Shown here one piece after another: positions 10,403-26,494 of a stretch of 37,307 bases of DNA; position 1 is the first letter of the stretch, and every line of letters begins with the position of its first letter. Source of the stretch: Chloroflexota bacterium. Lineage in GTDB: Bacteria; Chloroflexota; Dehalococcoidia; Lucifugimonadales; Australimonadaceae. Under the pieces are notes generated by a model. That model worked only from the letters and a program-made list of their open reading frames with translations, searched no databases and had not been told where the DNA came from. The stretch lies in contig VXQP01000106.1 in assembly GCA_009838965.1 (NCBI GenBank), forward strand, positions 1 through 37,307, in the 5' to 3' direction. The position numbers and the translations under genes are program-made.

Positions 10403-11434
10403 CTACCCCACGCACTCCCGGTATAGCGCCTCGTACCCGTCCACCATGCGCTCCACCGTGAACCGGCCCTCGACGTGTGACCGCACAGCGCGCCGGTCGA
10501 GCGTGGACGCCCGCGCGATCGCCGCGACCGCCTCCTCCTCCGATGCCACGATGCAGCCGGACACGCCGTCCTCCACCAGCTCCGGCATCGACCCGCGAGC
10601 GTACGTCACCACCGGCGTGCCGCACGCCATCGCCTCCGCCGCCGCGAGCCCGAACGGCTCGTCCCACTGCAACGGGAAGAGGAACGCCTTCGCCCGCGAC
10701 ACGATATCCAGCACCTCCGTGTTCGGTGCCTCTTCGATGTGCGTCACACGGTCGCCGTCGACGTGTGGCAGCACCTCTTCCTCGTAGAACGCGCGGCTCC
10801 ACGGCAGGTAGCGCGACACCGGCCCGATGAGCACCAGCCGCTCCCCTGCCGCCCGCGCGATGCGTATCGCCTCGACTATGCCCTTTGTGGGCGTCATGCG
10901 CGCCACGAGCACAACGTAGTCCTCCGCCGTCTCGCCGAACGGGATGCGCTCGACGTCCAGCCCGTTGTAGACCACCGGCAGGTCCGGCTCGCCCAGCAGT
11001 TCCGCCTGTCTGCGGCTCACGCACACCGGGCGCAGACTCGGTATCTGCCGGCGGTAGTATTCATGCAGGTGACGCTCGATGTAGTGGTACGTCAGCAGTG
11101 TTGGCGTTGCCGTGAACTGCGCAAAGTACTGCGCGAGCACCGGCCAGTGCGCGTGGACGACGTCCACCTCACCCGCGCTCCGGTACGCCTCGAACGCATT
11201 GCGCGCCTCCAGCTCCTTCTCGATGTACAGCGTCACGTCCGCCATACCGAGCGTCGCTTGCTCCGTCACCGCTCGAAGCGAGGCCGCTGTTGAGGAATCG
11301 CCGGAGGCGTGGAGCCGCACCTCGTGCCCGCGCCGTACGAGCTCCTCCGTGAGGTGGGAGACCATCATCTCCGTGCCGCCGTGCGTTGGCGGCGGCACGG
11401 GGATGTACACGCTCGTGATCTGCGCTATCCGCAC
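10403..11434 (-). CDS. Family 4 glycosyltransferase (GT-B fold)
   Basis: 343-aa retaining glycosyltransferase that moves a sugar from a nucleotide donor to an unidentified acceptor. The N-terminal Rossmann half shows HGGTEMMVSHLTEELVRRGHEV (residues 18-39). The C-terminal half shows the GT4 donor-site motif WDEPFGLAAAEAMACGTPVV with the E-x7-E pair, then SMPELVEDGVSG. The start is GTG with no clear Shine-Dalgarno, 13 nt after the stop of the upstream membrane-protein gene, so the two probably share a transcript. The acceptor could be a lipid, glycan or small molecule. Confidence 0.88.
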   Translation of the reverse strand: MRIAQITSVYIPVPPPTHGGTEMMVSHLTEELVRRGHEVRLHASGDSSTAASLRAVTEQATLGMADVTLYIEKELEARNAFEAYRSAGEVDVVHAHWPVLAQYFAQFTATPTLLTYHYIERHLHEYYRRQIPSLRPVCVSRRQAELLGEPDLPVVYNGLDVERIPFGETAEDYVVLVARMTPTKGIVEAIRIARAAGERLVLIGPVSRYLPWSRAFYEEEVLPHVDGDRVTHIEEAPNTEVLDIVSRAKAFLFPLQWDEPFGLAAAEAMACGTPVVTYARGSMPELVEDGVSGCIVASEEEAVAAIARASTLDRRAVRSHVEGRFTVERMVDGYEALYRECVG

Positions 11435-14792: not shown

Positions 14793-15128
14793 ATGACCGA
14801 ACAGCCCGACTTCGTAGCCCTCTGCAATGTGGACGACGTCAGACCTGGCGAGGCCCGTCACTTCCGGCCCACTGCGGGCAAGTGGCGCCTCAAGCCCATG
14901 GCCGTCTGGAACGAGAACGGCGAGTTCCACATCACCAACTACGTATGCCCCCACAGCGGCGGCCCGCTCAGCGAGGGCAAGATCGAGAACGGCGTCATCG
15001 AGTGCCCCTGGCACGCGTGGCAGTTCAACGTGAGCGACGGCACGTCCGCCCGTGGCGACGGCCACGCCATCGCCATCTACGAGTGCAAGATCGAGGGCGG
15101 CGAGGTCCTCGTGGGCGACGTCAAGTAA
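14793..15128 (+). CDS. Rieske [2Fe-2S] ferredoxin-like protein
   Basis: 111-aa soluble Rieske protein. Both cluster-binding boxes are intact: C-x-H in VCPHSGGPLSEG near residue 52 and C-x2-H in ECPWHAWQFNVSDG near 71. Length and order match stand-alone ferredoxins of the NirD / dioxygenase-ferredoxin type, with no signal peptide and no oxygenase domain. GGGGAGG is 5 nt upstream of the ATG. It precedes the pterin genes by 12 nt, so it may be cotranscribed, but its electron partner is not in the window. Confidence 0.9.
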   Translation: MTEQPDFVALCNVDDVRPGEARHFRPTAGKWRLKPMAVWNENGEFHITNYVCPHSGGPLSEGKIENGVIECPWHAWQFNVSDGTSARGDGHAIAIYECKIEGGEVLVGDVK

Positions 15129-15140
15129 GCGAACACCCGT

Positions 15141-15557
15141 ATGGGCCCCGTAACCATCTCACGCCGGTTCGACTTCTCCGCCAGCCACCGCTACTACCGC
15201 GACGACTGGAGCGAGGAGGAGAACCGGCGTGTCTTCGGCCTCTGCGCTCTGCCCAACGGCCACGGCCACAACTACACACTGGAGGTCGCCGTCTCCGGCG
15301 AGCCCGACCCGGCAACCGGCATGGTCATCAACCTCGTCGACCTCAAGTCCGCCGTCGAGGGTGTCCTCGTCGACTTCGACCACAAGCACCTCAACCTGGA
15401 CACGCCGTGGTTCACCGACCGCCAGCCGACGACCGAGAACCTCGCCGCCGTGCTCTGGGACCGTATCGCCGACACCCTCGCAGGCGCGACGTTGTCGCGC
15501 TTGCGCCTCTACGAAGCCGACGACCTCTACGTCGACTACTTCGGAGCGACCGCATGA
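15141..15557 (+). CDS. 6-pyruvoyltetrahydropterin synthase-like protein, copy 1
   Basis: 138-aa T-fold enzyme of the PTPS/QueD family, which acts on 7,8-dihydroneopterin triphosphate. Zinc ligands are the His of FSASHRYY and both His of NGHGHNY. The catalytic Cys lies five residues before HGH (C-ALPNG-HGH), Asp-His is in DFDHKHLNLD, and Glu in PTTENLA. The C-x5-HGH spacing and the MVINLVDLK and TTEN stretches resemble tetrahydrobiopterin-type PTPS more than QueD, whose Cys is three residues before HGH. No clear Shine-Dalgarno is present. Its stop overlaps the start of a second copy (ATGA). QueD activity remains possible. Confidence 0.88.
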   Translation: MGPVTISRRFDFSASHRYYRDDWSEEENRRVFGLCALPNGHGHNYTLEVAVSGEPDPATGMVINLVDLKSAVEGVLVDFDHKHLNLDTPWFTDRQPTTENLAAVLWDRIADTLAGATLSRLRLYEADDLYVDYFGATA

Positions 15558-15970
15558 GCACGCCCGTCGTCCACCTTTCGCGGCGCTACACCTTCGCCGC
15601 CTCCCACCGCCTCTACGCCGACGCGCTCTCGCCCGAGCAGAACGAGGCCATCTTCGGCAAGTGCGCCAACCCCAATGGCCACGGCCACAACTACGGACTC
15701 ACCGTCACCGTCACCGGCCCCGTCGACCCGGACACCGGCTTCGTGATCCCGCTCGCCGAGCTCGACGACGCGGTCAAGCGCAACGTCCTCGACCTCTACG
15801 ACCACCGCTACCTCAACCTGGACGTGGAGGACTACTTCCACCTCGTTCCCACCGGCGAGAACATCGCCCGCATGGTCTGGCAGCGCCTCAGCGGCCCCCT
15901 CGCCGGACGCCTCGAACGCGTCATCCTCGACGAGACGCGCAACAACCGCTTCGAGTACCCCGCCCCGTGA
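15554..15970 (+). CDS. 6-pyruvoyltetrahydropterin synthase-like protein, copy 2
   Basis: 138-aa paralogue of the preceding gene, fused to it by a 4-bp ATGA overlap. It keeps the zinc-site His residues (FAASHRLY, NGHGHNY), the Cys of FGKCANPNGHGH, Asp-His in LYDHRYLNLD and the Glu of PTGENIA. FGKCANPNGHGHNY is strikingly like animal PTPS. The two copies are diverged over most of their length, so this is an old duplication, perhaps forming a heteromer or two sequential activities. Its TGA shares a base with the ATG of the short-chain reductase. Confidence 0.88.
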   Translation: MSTPVVHLSRRYTFAASHRLYADALSPEQNEAIFGKCANPNGHGHNYGLTVTVTGPVDPDTGFVIPLAELDDAVKRNVLDLYDHRYLNLDVEDYFHLVPTGENIARMVWQRLSGPLAGRLERVILDETRNNRFEYPAP

Positions 15971-16683
15971 TGGACCTCGCCGGAAAGACCGCAGTCGTCA
16001 CCGGCGCGTCGAGCGGCATCGGCAAGGCTGTTGCGCAGCGCCTCGTCGACTCCGGCGCGCGTGTCGCGCTCGTCGGACGCAGCGAGGAGCGGCTGCGCGA
16101 GGCCGCCTCTGCCTGGCCCCGGGACTCGTGGCTTGCGCTCCCCTGCGACGTGCGCGACAGCGCAGCGGTGCAGGCGATGGCCGCCCGCGCCGAGCAGGAA
16201 CTCGGACGCGTCGACATCCTGGTGAACTCGGCGGGTGCCTTCAAGGCCGCCGCCCTCACGGAACTCGACGACGAGACCTGGCGCGAGCTCTGGGAGACGA
16301 ACGTCAACGGTACGCTCTTCCCCACCCGCGCACTGCTGCCCGGCATGCTGGAACGGGGCTTCGGCTGCATCGTCATCGTCTCCTCCGTCGTCGCGCACCG
16401 GGGCTTCGCGGGCATGACCGGCTACGGCGCAACGAAGCACGCCGTTACCGGCTTCGCCCGTGCTCTCACGACCGAGGTGCGGCGGCAGGGCGTGCGTGTC
16501 GTCAACGCCTGTATCGGCCCTGTGGACACGCCGATATGGGAAGGCATGACCACGCCGCTCCCACGGGAGGAGATGCTCACCGTGGACGAGGTCGCCGGCG
16601 CCATCGTGAGCGCCATGACCCTCTCGGACAGGCAGGTCGTCGAGGACCTGCTCCTCCTTCCGCAGGGCGGCCTCTACCCCTGA
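15970..16683 (+). CDS. Short-chain dehydrogenase/reductase, candidate pterin reductase
   Basis: 237-aa classical SDR. The N-terminal NADP(H) site VTGASSGIGKAV is at residues 11-22 and LVNSAGAF near 86. The catalytic Ser is in IVSSVVAHRG near 138 and the Tyr-x3-Lys in GYGATKHAVTG near 152. It overlaps the second pterin synthase by one base, so translation is coupled. By context it could be the sepiapterin-reductase step of a tetrahydrobiopterin route. Sequence alone only says SDR, and a 3-oxoacyl or sugar reductase is possible. Confidence 0.88.
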   Translation: MDLAGKTAVVTGASSGIGKAVAQRLVDSGARVALVGRSEERLREAASAWPRDSWLALPCDVRDSAAVQAMAARAEQELGRVDILVNSAGAFKAAALTELDDETWRELWETNVNGTLFPTRALLPGMLERGFGCIVIVSSVVAHRGFAGMTGYGATKHAVTGFARALTTEVRRQGVRVVNACIGPVDTPIWEGMTTPLPREEMLTVDEVAGAIVSAMTLSDRQVVEDLLLLPQGGLYP

Positions 16684-17486: not shown

Positions 17487-17506
17487 GTTCCTGCGGAGGC
17501 AGGAAC
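17487..17506. repeat. Compact palindromic repeat GTTCCTGC/GCAGGAAC
   Basis: 8-bp arms with a 4-nt loop lie 14 nt after the transporter stop. It is a short form of the arms at 14583-14617. It could act as a transcript end for the transporter gene, but no T-run follows. It also marks the last core-type repeat before the lower-GC accessory region. Confidence 0.65.
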
Positions 17507-17582
17507 CTCGCAGCCCGTTCATGGTGAACCAGAGGCTACCGTATTGCGAACTTTCCAGTGGGAGGTTGCACTGTAGTACCCG

Positions 17583-17774
17583 CGGGTACCTCTCGGTGCG
17601 AAACACGGCGTGCGTCACGATGCCAGTGGCCTCGTCTACAGCCAGCAGCAGGACGAATTGCAGACCTCGTTTCTCCAACCACGGATGATGACTGCCATCG
17701 ATTTTACACAAGTCCCTTAGGGCATCCGCTAGGGAGGACGCCGTTTTTCGTGGGCTTGGGGTGTCTGCCCCCAT
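17583..17774 (-). pseudogene. ISNCY-like transposase fragment (DDE core piece)
   Basis: A minus-strand frame reads CKIDGSHHPWLEKRGLQF and then LLAVDEATGIVTHAVFR. This is the start of the DDE integrase core of ISNCY-type transposases, including the first catalytic Asp (DGSHHPW) and the D-E-A-T-G strand. The upstream HTH half and the rest of the catalytic domain are missing, and the frame runs into unrelated sequence on both sides. It is a decayed insertion-sequence remnant at the left edge of the accessory region. Confidence 0.6.
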
Positions 17775-18308
17775 CAGGATGCGGTGTACCGCCCGCTGGC
17801 TGAGGTGCCTCGCAAGGAGGGAGCGTTGTCAGCGACTATGCTATCCTCCCGTCTGGAGCCACGGTTTGAGGCGCTAGGAGGTACCCGGCCGCCAATGGCT
17901 AGCATTCCTTCGTCGGTCCATACGGGCGCATGCAGCGTACGCGCTACGAGTGTTGCGGTAGAGTGCAAGGTAGTATTGCAGGAATGCGCCAGATACGAGG
18001 TGGCCTCGACGGGAAGGCACAGGGGCATGCGAGTAGCACCAAGGAGATGCCTCGCACCGTACAACGAAGATCGGGGCCGACCGCTGGAAAACGTTGATTC
18101 GCGTAGTCCCGCAGTCACCCCCACGAGATTGGCTTGCAGAGGAGTGTGGCAGTTGCCTCGTGCTTCAAGGCTTCTCCTCCTCCAATCCAAATGGCATCAC
18201 CACAACACCGCCTCGCTCCTGTATACTACTCCTCCGTTACCATCCACTCGTTTCTGGAAAGAGGTTAGCTCGTTGGAAGGGGAGCGGACAGATAGCGATG
18301 GACACGGA
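17775..18308. other. Gene-poor stretch between transposase remnant and unknown gene
   Basis: Base composition is lower in GC than the core genes. One open frame on each strand spans it, but neither shows recognisable motifs or sensible composition. A TATACT at about 18221-18226 could be a -10 element for the following gene, with no good -35. It probably holds decayed insertion-sequence DNA. Confidence 0.4.
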
Positions 18309-18803
18309 ATGCGGGCCGCACAGGCATTAGACGAGTTCCGAAGCCGACATACTCCTCGGCACCCAAGGTCAACTTCAATCCCAGAAGAAGAACAACAGCT
18401 AAGCACCCAGGATGGACTTCGGCATCTGTCACCGGCCCCGGTGACAGATGTCTTGTTTGGAAAGCCTCCTGTGTCATTGGAAGATCCGGGGCAACACAGG
18501 TATCTATGGGTAATCGACGCTAGCGGTGTCCCCTACATCGGTGAGATACCGATCCCAGCGATTGGCATGAAACCAAAGCATACGAACTTGACGGGAGGGC
18601 AAGAAGCATACCTAGGAGGCGAAATGTGGTTCGCTTCCAGTGACGCCCTGTACATTTCAGGAGGTTCTGGTCGTTATCCTCCGCAGGATAGTCGCCAACT
18701 TGAAGAGGCGGGCGAAGTCTTGGAGTTATTTGACTATTCTGTCACTTCGTTGGGCTGGGACGATGGGACAGGAACAGCGAAACGCTTTCTGGAGGAACCG
18801 TAA
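18309..18803 (+). CDS. Unknown protein coupled to the HTH-metallopeptidase gene
   Basis: 164 aa. I do not recognise a named family. The C-terminal 115 residues look like a compact conserved domain: YLWVIDASGVPYIGEIP, the HTNLTGGQEAYLGGEMWF segment, LYISGGSGRYPP, and VTSLGWDDGTG near the end. The N-terminal 45 residues are polar and low in structure. ATG 18309 is the first ATG in the plausible coding part; TTG 18273 with AGAGG upstream is an alternative. The stop TAA shares its last A with the ATG of the next gene, so both are made from one mRNA. It has no membrane segment or signal peptide. Confidence 0.65.
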   Translation: MRAAQALDEFRSRHTPRHPRSTSIPEEEQQLSTQDGLRHLSPAPVTDVLFGKPPVSLEDPGQHRYLWVIDASGVPYIGEIPIPAIGMKPKHTNLTGGQEAYLGGEMWFASSDALYISGGSGRYPPQDSRQLEEAGEVLELFDYSVTSLGWDDGTGTAKRFLEEP

Positions 18804-20227
18804 TGAATAGCCTAACGCACATATTTGGGTCAAGTGCTGAAGGCCTTTCCCCACAAGCTGCGGCCCGGGCATCCAACAAGAACTTCGTCCGGAGTGAAGG
18901 CCAGCTAGCAGTATACGATCCCTCGCGGGATCCTACCGGTCATGTACTCACTGCATGGGAGGCGTTCACGGCGTACGGACTTGGTGTCCTTGAGGAAGCA
19001 GCCGACTATGGTTCTGCGATCTTGAGGCGCACTCAGGAGTCCCCTGGTACCGTCCTGAAGCGTCGGAGGGAAGCCCTTGACTTGTCCGCACAATCCGTTG
19101 CCAGAGCAGCGAAGATAGCACTAGCAGACCTCAAGTCTGCGGAATCCGGTGAATCAGCAGTCTCTCTCTCAACCTTGGAGCGCGTCGCGTTCGTGCTAGG
19201 ATTAGATGAGCGATTGCTTGCCTACAATGTGCACTCTGGCGGAGACGACAAACTAGCCTACCGCCTCAAGATGCTAATCGGGCAAGGCGACAATTCTCCA
19301 CGACTTGTTTCAGCCGGAACGGCTCTTCTTTTTGCCGAGGCGGCTTCAATTGCACGTGTGCAATTGAGACTACAGGACTGGCTTACAATCCCAATGGAAA
19401 AGGATTACTTTGAAATACACAAGAACTACGGATCGCCCAGCAATCCTGCTTGGAGCATCGGATACCGACTAGCGGAAGATTGCAGGAGGGCCTTGGGTCT
19501 CGGGGAGTCGCCTGTACCTTCTATGAGAGAATTAGTTGAGAAGCGGCTGGGCATCCCAGTGATCCAAGCCCGACTCCGCCAAGAGATTGCGGGCGCGACC
19601 GTGAGCACCAAGAACATTGACGGCGAACAAGTTCGGGGAGTGATTCTAAATACCGTAGGAGCCAACAAGAACGTCTGGGTACGACGAGCAACCTTGGCTC
19701 ACGAACTTGGGCATCTCCTCTATGACGCTGAAGAAAGCCTTGAAAGCGTCCGAGTTGACTCGTACGTCGACAGCCAGAAGGACCCTCAAAGGCAGGGGGT
19801 GGATTTTGTGGAGCAGCGTGCCAACGCTTTCGCCATAGCATTCCTAGCTCCAAATGACATGGTGCGGGACATGACACCCTCCCCGATTTCGGAGGAGTCC
19901 GTGTACCATGTCATGCGTACCTTCGGCATCAGTCAAACGGCGGCACGCTATCATGTTGCCAATTCCCACTACAAACAAGACAGTGTCCCCTTCTTATCGT
20001 TCAACTTGGAACCAACAGATGAACAAAAAGCCGCAGAAGACTTCGCTCTGGACTACTTCCCAATACTGTCCACACCGGATCAGCGCAGAGGTAGGATTTC
20101 GAGTCTAGTAGCAGTCTGTTATGAGCAAGGTCTTCTCTCTGAAGAGACCGCCTCTTTGTACCTTAGGTGCACACCGGACGAATTCGTAAGCAACCTAGCG
20201 CCTCTCCGGGAACTCCATAACATTTAG
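18803..20227 (+). CDS. XRE-type HTH protein with ImmA/IrrE metallopeptidase domain
   Basis: 474-aa regulator-protease. Residues 83-140 form a Cro/C1-type helix-turn-helix (TVLKRRREALDLSAQSVARA...LERVAFVLGLDERLL). Residues about 235-360 form an ImmA/IrrE zinc peptidase with HELGH at 300-304 and the third ligand Glu near 337 (VEQRANAFAIAFLAP). The C-terminal 110 residues are helical and of unknown role. Proteins of this design cleave or sense repressors in mobile elements, stress responses and toxin-antitoxin-like systems. The 82-residue N-terminal extension is unusual. It is coupled to the unknown gene upstream and flanked by transposase debris, so transfer is likely. Confidence 0.85.
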   Translation: MNSLTHIFGSSAEGLSPQAAARASNKNFVRSEGQLAVYDPSRDPTGHVLTAWEAFTAYGLGVLEEAADYGSAILRRTQESPGTVLKRRREALDLSAQSVARAAKIALADLKSAESGESAVSLSTLERVAFVLGLDERLLAYNVHSGGDDKLAYRLKMLIGQGDNSPRLVSAGTALLFAEAASIARVQLRLQDWLTIPMEKDYFEIHKNYGSPSNPAWSIGYRLAEDCRRALGLGESPVPSMRELVEKRLGIPVIQARLRQEIAGATVSTKNIDGEQVRGVILNTVGANKNVWVRRATLAHELGHLLYDAEESLESVRVDSYVDSQKDPQRQGVDFVEQRANAFAIAFLAPNDMVRDMTPSPISEESVYHVMRTFGISQTAARYHVANSHYKQDSVPFLSFNLEPTDEQKAAEDFALDYFPILSTPDQRRGRISSLVAVCYEQGLLSEETASLYLRCTPDEFVSNLAPLRELHNI

Positions 20228-20509
20228 ACCGCGCCCAGTTCCACAACAGCAGCACGATATAGAATGCTCTGCGTAAGCTGCGCCATTGAGTATCTGACCT
20301 CCAGCTTGTTGATGGGGTTCCTCGACTTGGCAATTGTTCTAAGCCCTCCATGAGATCCATAAGAGCTTAGCCGACCCTGCATGAGAGAATGTGTCAAACA
20401 GTCAAACGCCAAGAACTATAGGCCAGTAAAGTGAGGAATCGCCAAGGTCTTTAGGCCACCTGGGCACCGAACCGGAGAGCATGGCCGCACTTCACAGCGG
20501 GGATCGGCG
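20228..20509. other. Intergenic, no gene recognised
   Basis: Nothing is supported on either strand beyond short open frames without Shine-Dalgarno sites. The right end (from about 20470) is GC-rich and leads into the IS21 transposase remnant, so the insertion boundary probably lies near 20440-20500. No terminal repeat was found. Confidence 0.4.
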
Positions 20510-21671
20510 GTGGCTGGGGTGTCCAGAGTGGACATAGCAGAGGTTATCCGGCGGTGGCAGTGGGGGAACAGCCAGCGGTGTCCTAGCGTCGGGCACCGGG
20601 CTGTCCCGGGAGACGGTTCGCAAGTATGTGCGCGGCCCTGGAGGCTGGGATACGGGAGAGCGGTTCGGCCCCCACGGAGGAGCAACTCAGCCGTCTGGCG
20701 GCGATGGGGCGTTCGAGTCCGCGGAAGGCGGCGCGACCGGTCGACGGTCAGCCGGCTCCCTGGGCTGACCAGATATACCAGTGGCTCACGGTCAAGCGTC
20801 TGCAACTGACCCGCATCCTCGAGTTGCTGGAGGAACAGGGCTGCCGGGTCTCCTACACGACACTGAGGCGCTTCATTCAACGGCGCAACTGGCGGCGGCG
20901 CAGTCGCGCGACCGTTCGCATGGAATCCAGCGCGCCGGGAGAGGTGGCGGAACTGGACTTCGGACGGCTGGGACGGCTAGTCGATCCGGATACCGGTCGC
21001 AACCGGACGGTGTGGGCGCTGATCGTGGTGCTGTCCCACTCCCGGCACAGCTTCGTCTGGCCGACCTACGGCCAGAAGCTGGAGGATGTGATCGCGGGGC
21101 TGGAAGCGGCGTGGGCGTTCTCGACGGTGTTCCCCGCTACCTGGTCATCGACAACTTCCCCGCCGCGGTAGCGGGCGCCGATGCGCTGAACCCCCGGCTC
21201 ACGCGCGGTTTCCTGGAGTATGCCCAGCACCGAGGCTTCATCTGCGACCCGGCGCGGGTGCGCCATCCCAAGAACAAGCCCCGTGTGGAGCGTGGGATCC
21301 AATACGTGCGGGAGCGCTTCTTCAAGGGCGGCTGCTTCAGGGATCTGGCCCACCTGCGGGATGAGGCTGCGCGCTGGTGTCGCGACGTCGCCGGGCATCG
21401 GGTGCATGGCACCACCCGGCGGCAGCCGCTGGCGGTCTTCAAGGCGGAGGAGCGCGATGCCCTGCTCGCCTGGGACGGCGTCCCCTACGAGCTCACCGAT
21501 TGGCGCATCGCCAAGGTGCATCCCGACCACCACGTCTTCTGCCAGTACGCCCTCTATTCGGTGCCGGCGGCCCTCTGCCCGCCGGGACAGCAGGTGGAGA
21601 TCGGGCTGGGCGCCAAGCTGGTGCGCATCTATTACCGGGGCAGGTTGATCAAAGTCCATCCCCGGCAGCCT
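20510..21671 (+). pseudogene. istA: IS21 family transposase (istA), multiply frameshifted
   Basis: Three reading frames together encode an IstA-type DDE transposase. The N-terminal HTH reads DIAEVIRRWQWGNSQR in one frame and VLASGTGLSRETVRKYVR in the next. The core reads ELDFGRLGRLVDP (first Asp) and LIVVLSHSRHSFVWPTYGQ, then after a further shift VPRYLVIDNFPAAV (second Asp) and NKPRVERGIQYVRERFF (Glu). Frames break near 20577, 20638 and 21120; the last looks like loss of one C. The C-terminus after KVHPRQP is replaced by other sequence. No istB is present, so the element is dead. Confidence 0.85.
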
Positions 21672-21753
21672 TGCGGCCTGGATGCGCAAGCTGCTCATCA
21701 TCCTCAACGCCATGCTCAAGCACCGTACCCCATGGCGTGATTCTGGCTCCTAA
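21667..21753 (+). pseudogene. IS110-like transposase C-terminal fragment
   Basis: In a frame different from istA the sequence reads AAWMRKLLIILNAMLKHRTP and stops at TAA 21751-21753. This matches the conserved C-terminal tail of IS110/IS116/IS902 transposases (MRKLL.ILNAML...PW). The fragment abuts the truncated istA within a few bases, so one element apparently inserted into or recombined with the other. Confidence 0.6.
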
Positions 21754-21965
21754 GGCAGTCACTAATCCCTCTTGATTTCCAAGACAGTTGCTATCGGAGG
21801 CAGCACCCCTTGCGGACGCCCGCGCTCGGGGCGTACGATTCTGCAACCGCAACTCGTCAGCATCGTGGAACACGGGCGCCTGCCCCACGCCGACGCCGGT
21901 CCCAGACCCAGTCCCCGCGCTCCTAGCCTAACCCCATCCCTCTGCACGGCGCATATACTCGTGGC

Positions 21966-22104
21966 TAGTGTCCTGTATCTGAAGTACGTTGGCCACAGCG
22001 GGCACGCTGCCCGGGATTTGGTCAGCGGTTTTGGCCCAACCGAAGGGTAGGAGGACTCCCGAATGCCGGTAGCAATGACGACTAACTACGATTACAGGAC
22101 ACTA
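21966..22104. mobile_element. 139-bp MITE-like element with 12-bp terminal inverted repeats
   Basis: TAGTGTCCTGTA (21966-21977) is perfectly inverted as TACAGGACACTA (22093-22104), with partial similarity continuing inward. The ends begin and end in TA, as expected for IS630/Tc1-type TA insertions. The interior is too short for a transposase; only a 16-codon frame near the right end (MPVAMTTNYDYRTLDC) is present. It would be a non-autonomous relic. Confidence 0.6.
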
Positions 22105-25647: not shown

Positions 25648-25974
25648 CTATCTCCCCAGAACGGCCTCGCGAAGGGCGGCATTGGCGCGGGTCTGCCAGC
25701 CGGGGCCATCTGCGCGGAGGCGCGCCACCACATCCGCGTCGAGGCGGATCGTAACGCGCGTCTTCGGGTGCTCCCTGCGTGCATGGGGCGGCAGGGTCAG
25801 CTTGCCCGCGCGGTACATCGCCACCAGCTCGGGGTCGGCCTCTGCCATGGGTCGCGCGCGTGCGAAGTCCTCCTCCGCCCACTCAGGGTTCTCGGGGTCC
25901 GAGGCGATACCCATGTTGATGGCTTCGTCCTCTTCTGGTGCAGGACTGATGTGGCCAGGCTTAAGAGGCGGCAT
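25648..25974 (-). CDS. brnA: BrnA-type antitoxin
   Basis: 108-aa antitoxin of the BrnT/BrnA type II system; it binds and neutralises the BrnT ribonuclease and represses the operon. Family signature: NPEWAEEDFARARPMAE near residue 37, then the C-terminal ribbon-helix-helix VTIRLDADVVARLRADG followed by GWQTRANAALREAVLGR. ATG 25974 lies inside the 3' end of brnT, overlapping by 14 bp when the brnT frameshift is corrected. In the raw sequence the toxin frame runs directly into brnA because of that shift. The antitoxin itself looks intact. Confidence 0.85.
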   Translation of the reverse strand: MPPLKPGHISPAPEEDEAINMGIASDPENPEWAEEDFARARPMAEADPELVAMYRAGKLTLPPHARREHPKTRVTIRLDADVVARLRADGPGWQTRANAALREAVLGR

Positions 25975-26220
25975 AGCGCACCTCCTCCCTTCGATTGGCT
26001 TTGCGCAGGCTGATGACCCGGATGTCGGCCTCTCGCCGCACGTACCGAGGACGTGCATCCGGTCGCCGATGTAGCCGTATGCTCGGACTCGCGGCTCGTC
26101 GTAGCGCAGGTCAGGCACCTGCATCGCCGTCTCCATGTTGAACCCCTCCACCAGCACGAAATCCACGCCGTGCTTGCGGATGTTGACCTCACGCTTGGTT
26201 TCGTCCCATTCGAACGGCAT
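25961..26220 (-). pseudogene. brnT: BrnT-type toxin with a single-base frameshift
   Basis: The N-terminal part MPFEWDETKREVNIRKHGVD is the BrnT signature; this family are RNase toxins of the RelE-like fold. The frame continues to GDRMHVL. After a missing base near 26043-26049 another frame reads YVRREADIRVISLRKANRRE and ends VRYAAS at TAA 25963-25961, the expected BrnT C-terminus. As sequenced the toxin loses its last third and fuses to BrnA. ATG 26220 follows the -10 element by 4 nt. Confidence 0.8.
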
Positions 26221-26224
26221 CTCT

Positions 26225-26255
26225 AGTGTATGTACACCCGTTGACGCGGTCAACG
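26225..26255 (-). promoter_or_regulatory. brnTA promoter with overlapping palindromic operator
   Basis: On the minus strand -35 TTGACC (26253-26248), a 17-bp spacer and -10 TACACT (26230-26225) stand 4 nt before the brnT ATG, so the transcript would begin at or next to the start codon. A perfect palindrome of 7-bp arms (CGTTGAC at 26239-26245, GTCAACG at 26249-26255) with 3-nt spacer covers the -35. It is the natural site for BrnA autorepression. Sequence is direct; binding is inferred. Confidence 0.65.
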
Positions 26256-26494
26256 CAGGGGCAAGCGACATCCTACCCGTGCCTTGCCATGCGAGGGAAG
26301 CGGGCTCTGTCAGGAGGTGGACGGGTTCGCCATGCGAGAGAGTTTCTGTCAAGTCACATTTTCGTGTACCCCTTACATCACGGAAGGCACCGCGAAGAGA
26401 AAGCCTTGTAGCACCCCGCATCCGTGCGGGGGCTTACAGGGGAGGGGCCTGCAGCAGGTCTTTTTCCGGCGTTCGATCGTTCAGACTCTTTCGC
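26256..26494. other. Intergenic with a free-standing hairpin
   Basis: No convincing gene in this part. A stem CCCCGCA (26414-26420)/TGCGGGG (26425-26431) with TCCG loop is extended imperfectly by CCTTGTAG/CTTACAGG, making a 36-nt hairpin at 26405-26440. No T-run follows on either strand and no gene ends here, so it is not an obvious terminator. Confidence 0.4.

Follow-up and report, generated by a model that had tools for sequence, protein, structure and literature searches.

Why would a bacterium carry, side by side, two genes for 6-pyruvoyltetrahydropterin synthase (PTPS), the animal enzyme on the route to the cofactor tetrahydrobiopterin (BH4)? The question is raised by a 37,307-nucleotide stretch of DNA, hereafter the window, from a marine-type Chloroflexota bacterium; the stretch is contig C96 of a 3.01-Mb assembly that is 96.6% complete. 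Two PTPS-like genes lie here between a gene for a Rieske protein and one for a short-chain dehydrogenase/reductase (SDR). The gene positions and overlaps given in the initial annotation all hold, and each of the four genes has a clear Pfam match. The features discussed below, including a glycosyltransferase gene elsewhere in the window, are as follows.

14793..15128, + strand: Rieske [2Fe-2S] ferredoxin-type protein, 111 aa (Pfam PF00355, 3.5e-17)
15141..15557, + strand: PTPS-A, 138 aa, animal-type 6-pyruvoyltetrahydropterin synthase paralogue A (Pfam PTPS, 7.6e-32; human PTPS, 2.5e-38)
15554..15970, + strand: PTPS-B, 138 aa, paralogue B (Pfam PTPS, 4.3e-29; human PTPS, 5.3e-32)
15970..16683, + strand: SDR, 237 aa, candidate sepiapterin/6-pyruvoyltetrahydropterin reductase (Pfam adh_short, 3e-56)
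10403..11434, − strand: GT4 glycosyltransferase, 343 aa, candidate tetrahydropterin glycosyltransferase, a lead (PDB matches 7fg9/8x3q and 5ze7)

We consider it likely that the block encodes steps two and three of a tetrahydrobiopterin-type pathway, with PTPS-A and PTPS-B acting as one mixed enzyme. GTP cyclohydrolase I (GCH1), encoded elsewhere, would make dihydroneopterin triphosphate; PTPS-A and PTPS-B would jointly convert it to 6-pyruvoyltetrahydropterin, the reaction predicted for the pair; and the SDR would reduce this intermediate to a tetrahydropterin, either BH4 or an isomer. The assignment to a tetrahydropterin pathway is well supported, and action of the paired PTPS as a single heteromeric enzyme is most likely on the comparisons given below. 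What we observed directly is the family of each protein, the gene order, the degree of conservation, the fusions and which residues have been lost in which copy.

Conservation of the four-gene block

The order Rieske, PTPS-A, PTPS-B, SDR is kept in all eight of the nearest Dehalococcoidia/SAR202 loci, where PTPS-A is 72–97% and PTPS-B 74–94% identical to the window copies; with such conservation, the arrangement is not a matter of chance. PTPS-A and PTPS-B overlap by 4 bp (ATGA), and PTPS-B and the SDR gene by 1 bp (TGATG). Translational coupling had been proposed from these overlaps, which are real, and the 4-bp overlap is retained in six of the eight loci. In the other two (L003 and L004), 118–317 bp of repeats lie between the PTPS genes, so the overlap is broken in both close relatives. 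Judged by gene overlap, A/B coupling is thus common, not universal. In the intervening segments (L003, 5681–6003; L004, 5877–6003) there are direct repeats of about 107 bp, in L003, along with a small GC-rich element that is palindromic.

The Rieske protein has its PDB kin among the ferredoxin components of dioxygenases, and its gene is present in 8/8 nearest loci and in one further locus (L117). No Rieske gene was found near L116, L118, L131 or the fused pairs described below. Absence from many loci that carry the pair means that the protein is not a required part, and we rejected it as an essential component. The initial annotation suggested that it may supply electrons to a pterin-related enzyme; we treat it as an optional neighbor of the pair, perhaps an auxiliary electron carrier, perhaps a passenger.

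The SDR retains a complete core, with TGxxxGIG and the Ser-Tyr-Lys set, and residues G12, G16, G18, S139, Y152 and K156 are invariant. When a profile of the pair-linked SDRs was compared with the PDB, Chlorobium sepiapterin reductase (2bd0) ranked fifth with a full-length match, among many SDRs that score alike. A fold search placed 2bd0 eighth among about 2000 near-equal matches, and fold comparison was therefore rejected as a test of sepiapterin specificity. The initial annotation had read PTPS followed by a sepiapterin-type SDR as the BH4 route; the tetrahydropterin pathway stands, while specificity for sepiapterin is unreadable from sequence or fold. The SDR is a candidate reductase of 6-pyruvoyltetrahydropterin, a role that rests on gene position.

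Relationship of the two PTPS copies

The family has been divided into PTPS-I (QueD), PTPS-II (biopterin) and PTPS-III (folate) (PMC5041015). The two window copies, which are 47% identical to each other, both contain His23/48/50, Cys42, Asp88-His89, Glu107 and Glu133 (rat numbering) and both have the C-x5-HGH spacing; alignment to rat PTPS thereby bears out the zinc His, Cys, Asp-His, Glu and spacing first read in them. Their best PDB matches are human and rat PTPS, with E-values against the human enzyme of 2.5e-38 (A) and 5.3e-32 (B) versus 8e-10 and 9e-11 against E. coli QueD. Human PTPS is also the closest fold to the predicted model of PTPS-A (mean pLDDT 82). A maximum-likelihood tree groups animal PTPS and Bacteroidota homologues with A and B and separates them all from QueD (support 99/97), an outcome in favor of the first reading of the copies. 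On these sequence comparisons, both copies are animal-type PTPS-II. They are the only PTPS genes found in the genome.

Within the tree, the A rows form a clade with support of 97/98, and the B rows one with 86/50 as a whole and 96/81 for its core; a constraint holding 31 A rows together was not rejected. Each paralogue has an old clade of its own, and a recent local duplication was rejected as the origin of the tandem. The paralogues also differ at fixed positions. Residue 25, beside a zinc ligand, is Tyr in A and Leu in B, and residue 137, in the loop after Glu133, is Leu in A and Asn in B (rat numbering throughout). Leu25 and Asn137 are the usual residues, so that it is A that departs at both.

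We surveyed 294 genomes at the level of the class and 400 at that of the phylum. Adjacent A/B pairs occur in several Chloroflexota families, and the tandem, initially regarded as unusual, is not so within this phylum; tree position and adjacency mark A and B as an old paralogous pair that occurs together across it. Outside the class of the window, most carriers have A and B in one open frame of 273–365 codons, and two loci (L168 and L170) encode three PTPS domains in one chain. The pathway neighbors recur around these genes. GCH1 adjoins the fused PTPS in 26 of 26 fused-pair loci (L139, L141–L165), and an SDR lies near the fusion in many of the 26 where the short locus extends far enough; the longer stretches L167 and L171–L173 likewise contain an SDR. 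One genome (G065, locus L119) has an overlapping operon in the order A-B fusion-GCH1-SDR. Other gene orders are GCH1-A-B-SDR-phenylalanine hydroxylase (L166), PTPS-GCH1-PCD-SDR (L170, PCD being pterin-4a-carbinolamine dehydratase) and A-B-SDR-GCH1-GT4 (L180).

Two complete PTPS-II genes also stand in tandem on a Chitinophagaceae contig (L057, 2835–3695); they belong to two different Bacteroidota clades, from which it follows that pairing of PTPS arose more than once.

Loss of catalytic residues in paired copies

The pattern of residue loss bears on how the pair might work. Across 44 A/B pairs, which include related genomes and are not independent of one another, A retains Asp88-His89 in 44/44 and has lost Cys42 in 11/44 (replaced by Tyr, Ala or Leu, or deleted, with zinc ligands lost too in two). 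B shows the mirror image, with Cys42 and the zinc ligands intact in 44/44 and Asp-His lost in 19/44 (DY, DF, HL or AF). Among 17 unpaired PTPS-II proteins, none had lost Cys or Asp-His. Parsimony on the tree requires at least four independent losses of Cys, all in A, and at least two of Asp-His, all in B, with no loss in the opposite direction. Only about six loss events set the direction; were each a coin toss, either consistent orientation would arise with a probability of 1/32. In seven fusions (L151, L153–L157 and L159), Cys is missing from A and Asp-His from B, meaning that neither half could work alone.

According to Burgisser et al. in 1995, the Cys is reportedly provided by one subunit and the Asp-His by the next. 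Two trimers make up the PTPS hexamer, and its active sites lie where three adjacent monomers meet (PMC7546909); the title of the 1995 article, cited there, describes the catalytic triad as intersubunit. Since the triad is intersubunit and the paired copies lose opposite residues, an A/B heteromer with its site between B and A would account for the pattern. On this simplest reading, B gives zinc and Cys and A gives Asp-His. The old paralogues would assemble into one mixed hexamer in which the triad spans two subunits, so that B could contribute the zinc and Cys42 of a site and A its Asp88-His89; several relatives would have no other complete site left. The paralogue-specific residues at positions 25 and 137 fit the heteromer, and the hetero-oligomer guessed at in the initial annotation gains support from the A-B fusions and the complementary losses. 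We infer heteromer formation in this organism, as well as the reactions and the product.

Every catalytic residue is intact in both copies of the window and of its close kin. In the window, sites of all three kinds (A-A, B-B and A-B) could therefore be active. This completeness leaves some room for two independent homohexamers, one forming 6-pyruvoyltetrahydropterin and the other a different pterin, for example through a second step or as another stereoisomer; the fixed differences at positions 25 (Tyr/Leu) and 137 (Leu/Asn) could be read in the same way. We regard such a division of labor as improbable, however. One-chain fusions in several families, combined with one-directional, complementary loss of half-sites, argue for a shared active site, and in the Chloroflexus-type fusions neither half is complete by itself.

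The heteromer thus remains our preferred reading, and comparison with known PTPS-II enzymes shows where it departs from precedent. The window pair shares with the animal and bacterial enzymes the fold, C-x5-HGH, three zinc His, the Cys-Asp-His triad and the Glu anchors, along with GCH1 and SDR as pathway neighbors. In the known enzymes, a single gene product forms the homohexamer, whereas Chloroflexota have two old paired paralogues, often fused, in which half-sites have been lost complementarily in several lineages. Our search of the open literature, with most subscription journals outside it, found no paired or fused PTPS in Chloroflexota. Judged by those open papers, a paired PTPS with partitioned half-sites seems to be new, within a pathway of a known type. 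The tandem amounts to a natural experiment on the intersubunit triad, in which evolution has removed opposite half-sites from two paralogues.

A broader proposal, which we advance tentatively, is that Chloroflexota possess an obligately heteromeric 6-pyruvoyltetrahydropterin synthase, with A as the Asp-His donor and B as the zinc/Cys donor, encoded as split genes (as here), A-B fusions or three-domain chains. In the lineage of the window, its product would go into a tetrahydropterin, which may be glycosylated and would serve some purpose other than folate, queuosine or aromatic hydroxylation.

The pathway and its product

The remainder of the genome is consistent with a tetrahydropterin pathway. 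GCH1, whose presence the initial annotation had left to be established, is encoded on contig C92, and PCD on contig C91. Family searches of this 96.6% complete draft detected no QueC, FolB or HPPK/FolK; the missing QueC in particular favors the tetrahydropterin reading over a queuosine one. With QueC, FolB and FolK absent, queuosine and de novo folate are set aside as the purpose of the pathway, a conclusion drawn from absence in draft genomes. By the same reasoning, neither a folate nor a QueC route is in view for GCH1 to supply in this lineage, which leaves the PTPS pair as the evident consumer of its product. One point against the assignment is that GCH1 lies outside the cluster of the block in this genome, and the genes adjoining GCH1 and PCD provide no link to the pathway. 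At the GCH1 locus (L084, 3943–8346), GCH1 overlaps a GNAT-type gene; then come a GT4 gene and one for a PIG-L deacetylase, so that the context is one of sugar handling. The PCD gene adjoins a glyoxalase-like gene.

The user of the cofactor is a separate matter. An aromatic amino-acid hydroxylase (Biopterin_H), sought from the outset as a pterin user, was not found in the 96.6% complete draft, nor was any pterin-dependent enzyme among the families searched one by one. Across the phylum survey, aromatic hydroxylases occur in 17 of 34 pair-carrying genomes, counted by hand from the 400, versus 25 of 366 others (Fisher p 6e-10, kinship ignored). A tetrahydrobiopterin-type cofactor is the prediction for this Chloroflexota lineage, in which it has no known user.

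Pterin glycosides are made at high levels by cyanobacteria (PMC13259868), and the pathway here could likewise end in a glycosylated tetrahydropterin through the neighboring GT4. This extension of the preferred reading is compatible with it, somewhat unlikely on present comparisons, and best treated as a reasonable lead rather than a result. An orthologue of the window GT4, from the BH4-glucosyltransferase neighborhood, lies directly upstream of the block on the same strand in L008, L009, L011 and L131; the GT4 of the L180 operon has the BH4 glucosyltransferase 5ze7 as its best PDB match (4.7e-29); and the absence of a detected aromatic hydroxylase from this genome points the same way. The window GT4 itself, however, is nearer to 7fg9/8x3q, whose substrate is unstated (2e-62, 215 bits), than to the UDP-glucose:tetrahydrobiopterin glucosyltransferase 5ze7, which comes next (3e-23, 86 bits), and it lies on the opposite strand, 3.4 kb from the block. 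The GT4 adjoining L119 was rejected as a BH4 glucosyltransferase (BGluT), its best matches being other GT4 enzymes. The cyanobacterial BH4-glucoside pathway (GCH1, PTPS-II, sepiapterin reductase and BGluT) and that of Chlorobium use the same enzyme types, and a BGluT-related GT4 is found near the window pair. The Chloroflexota version differs in its paired PTPS, its product being a candidate tetrahydropterin and its GT4 a candidate tetrahydropterin glycosyltransferase.

Service to folate synthesis, with a PTPS-III-like bypass replacing the missing FolB, would be in keeping with the presence of GCH1, but we consider it very improbable. HPPK is missing here and from 6/6 other genomes of the same family tested (it is present in more distant pair carriers), which leaves no downstream folate route in view. 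PTPS-III activity is tied to a Cys-to-Glu change (PMC2229834) that is absent from the window copies, and the assignment was rejected on motif and on HPPK. QueD and PTPS-III do share the fold and superfamily (COG0720) of the window pair; their C-x3-HGH or Glu-containing motif and their queuosine or folate context are absent from the pair and the genome. A QueD pair for queuosine/preQ0 synthesis is scarcely credible, and was rejected given C-x5-HGH rather than C-x3-HGH, the tree position and the missing QueC, even though the NCBIfam QueD model matches the window copies at 63.6 and 63.9 (below its cut-off of 89.25) and fusions exceed that cut-off.

The fusions pass the QueD cut-off, as at L171 (4946–5812), because the scores of two halves are summed, while single window copies stay below it. 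In public annotation, A-B fusions may consequently be misnamed QueD; such a name would reflect nothing but the addition of domain scores.

Two further observations concern the rest of the window. The region 17500–22000, downstream of a VIT1 gene, differs from all relatives. It holds a gene for an HTH plus IrrE-type peptidase, and what is left of a transposase with a Mu C-terminal domain, and is probably an inserted island. At 25648–26421 on the − strand, a 257-aa frame matches both the BrnT toxin (residues 72–125) and the BrnA antitoxin (178–254), as if the two were fused.
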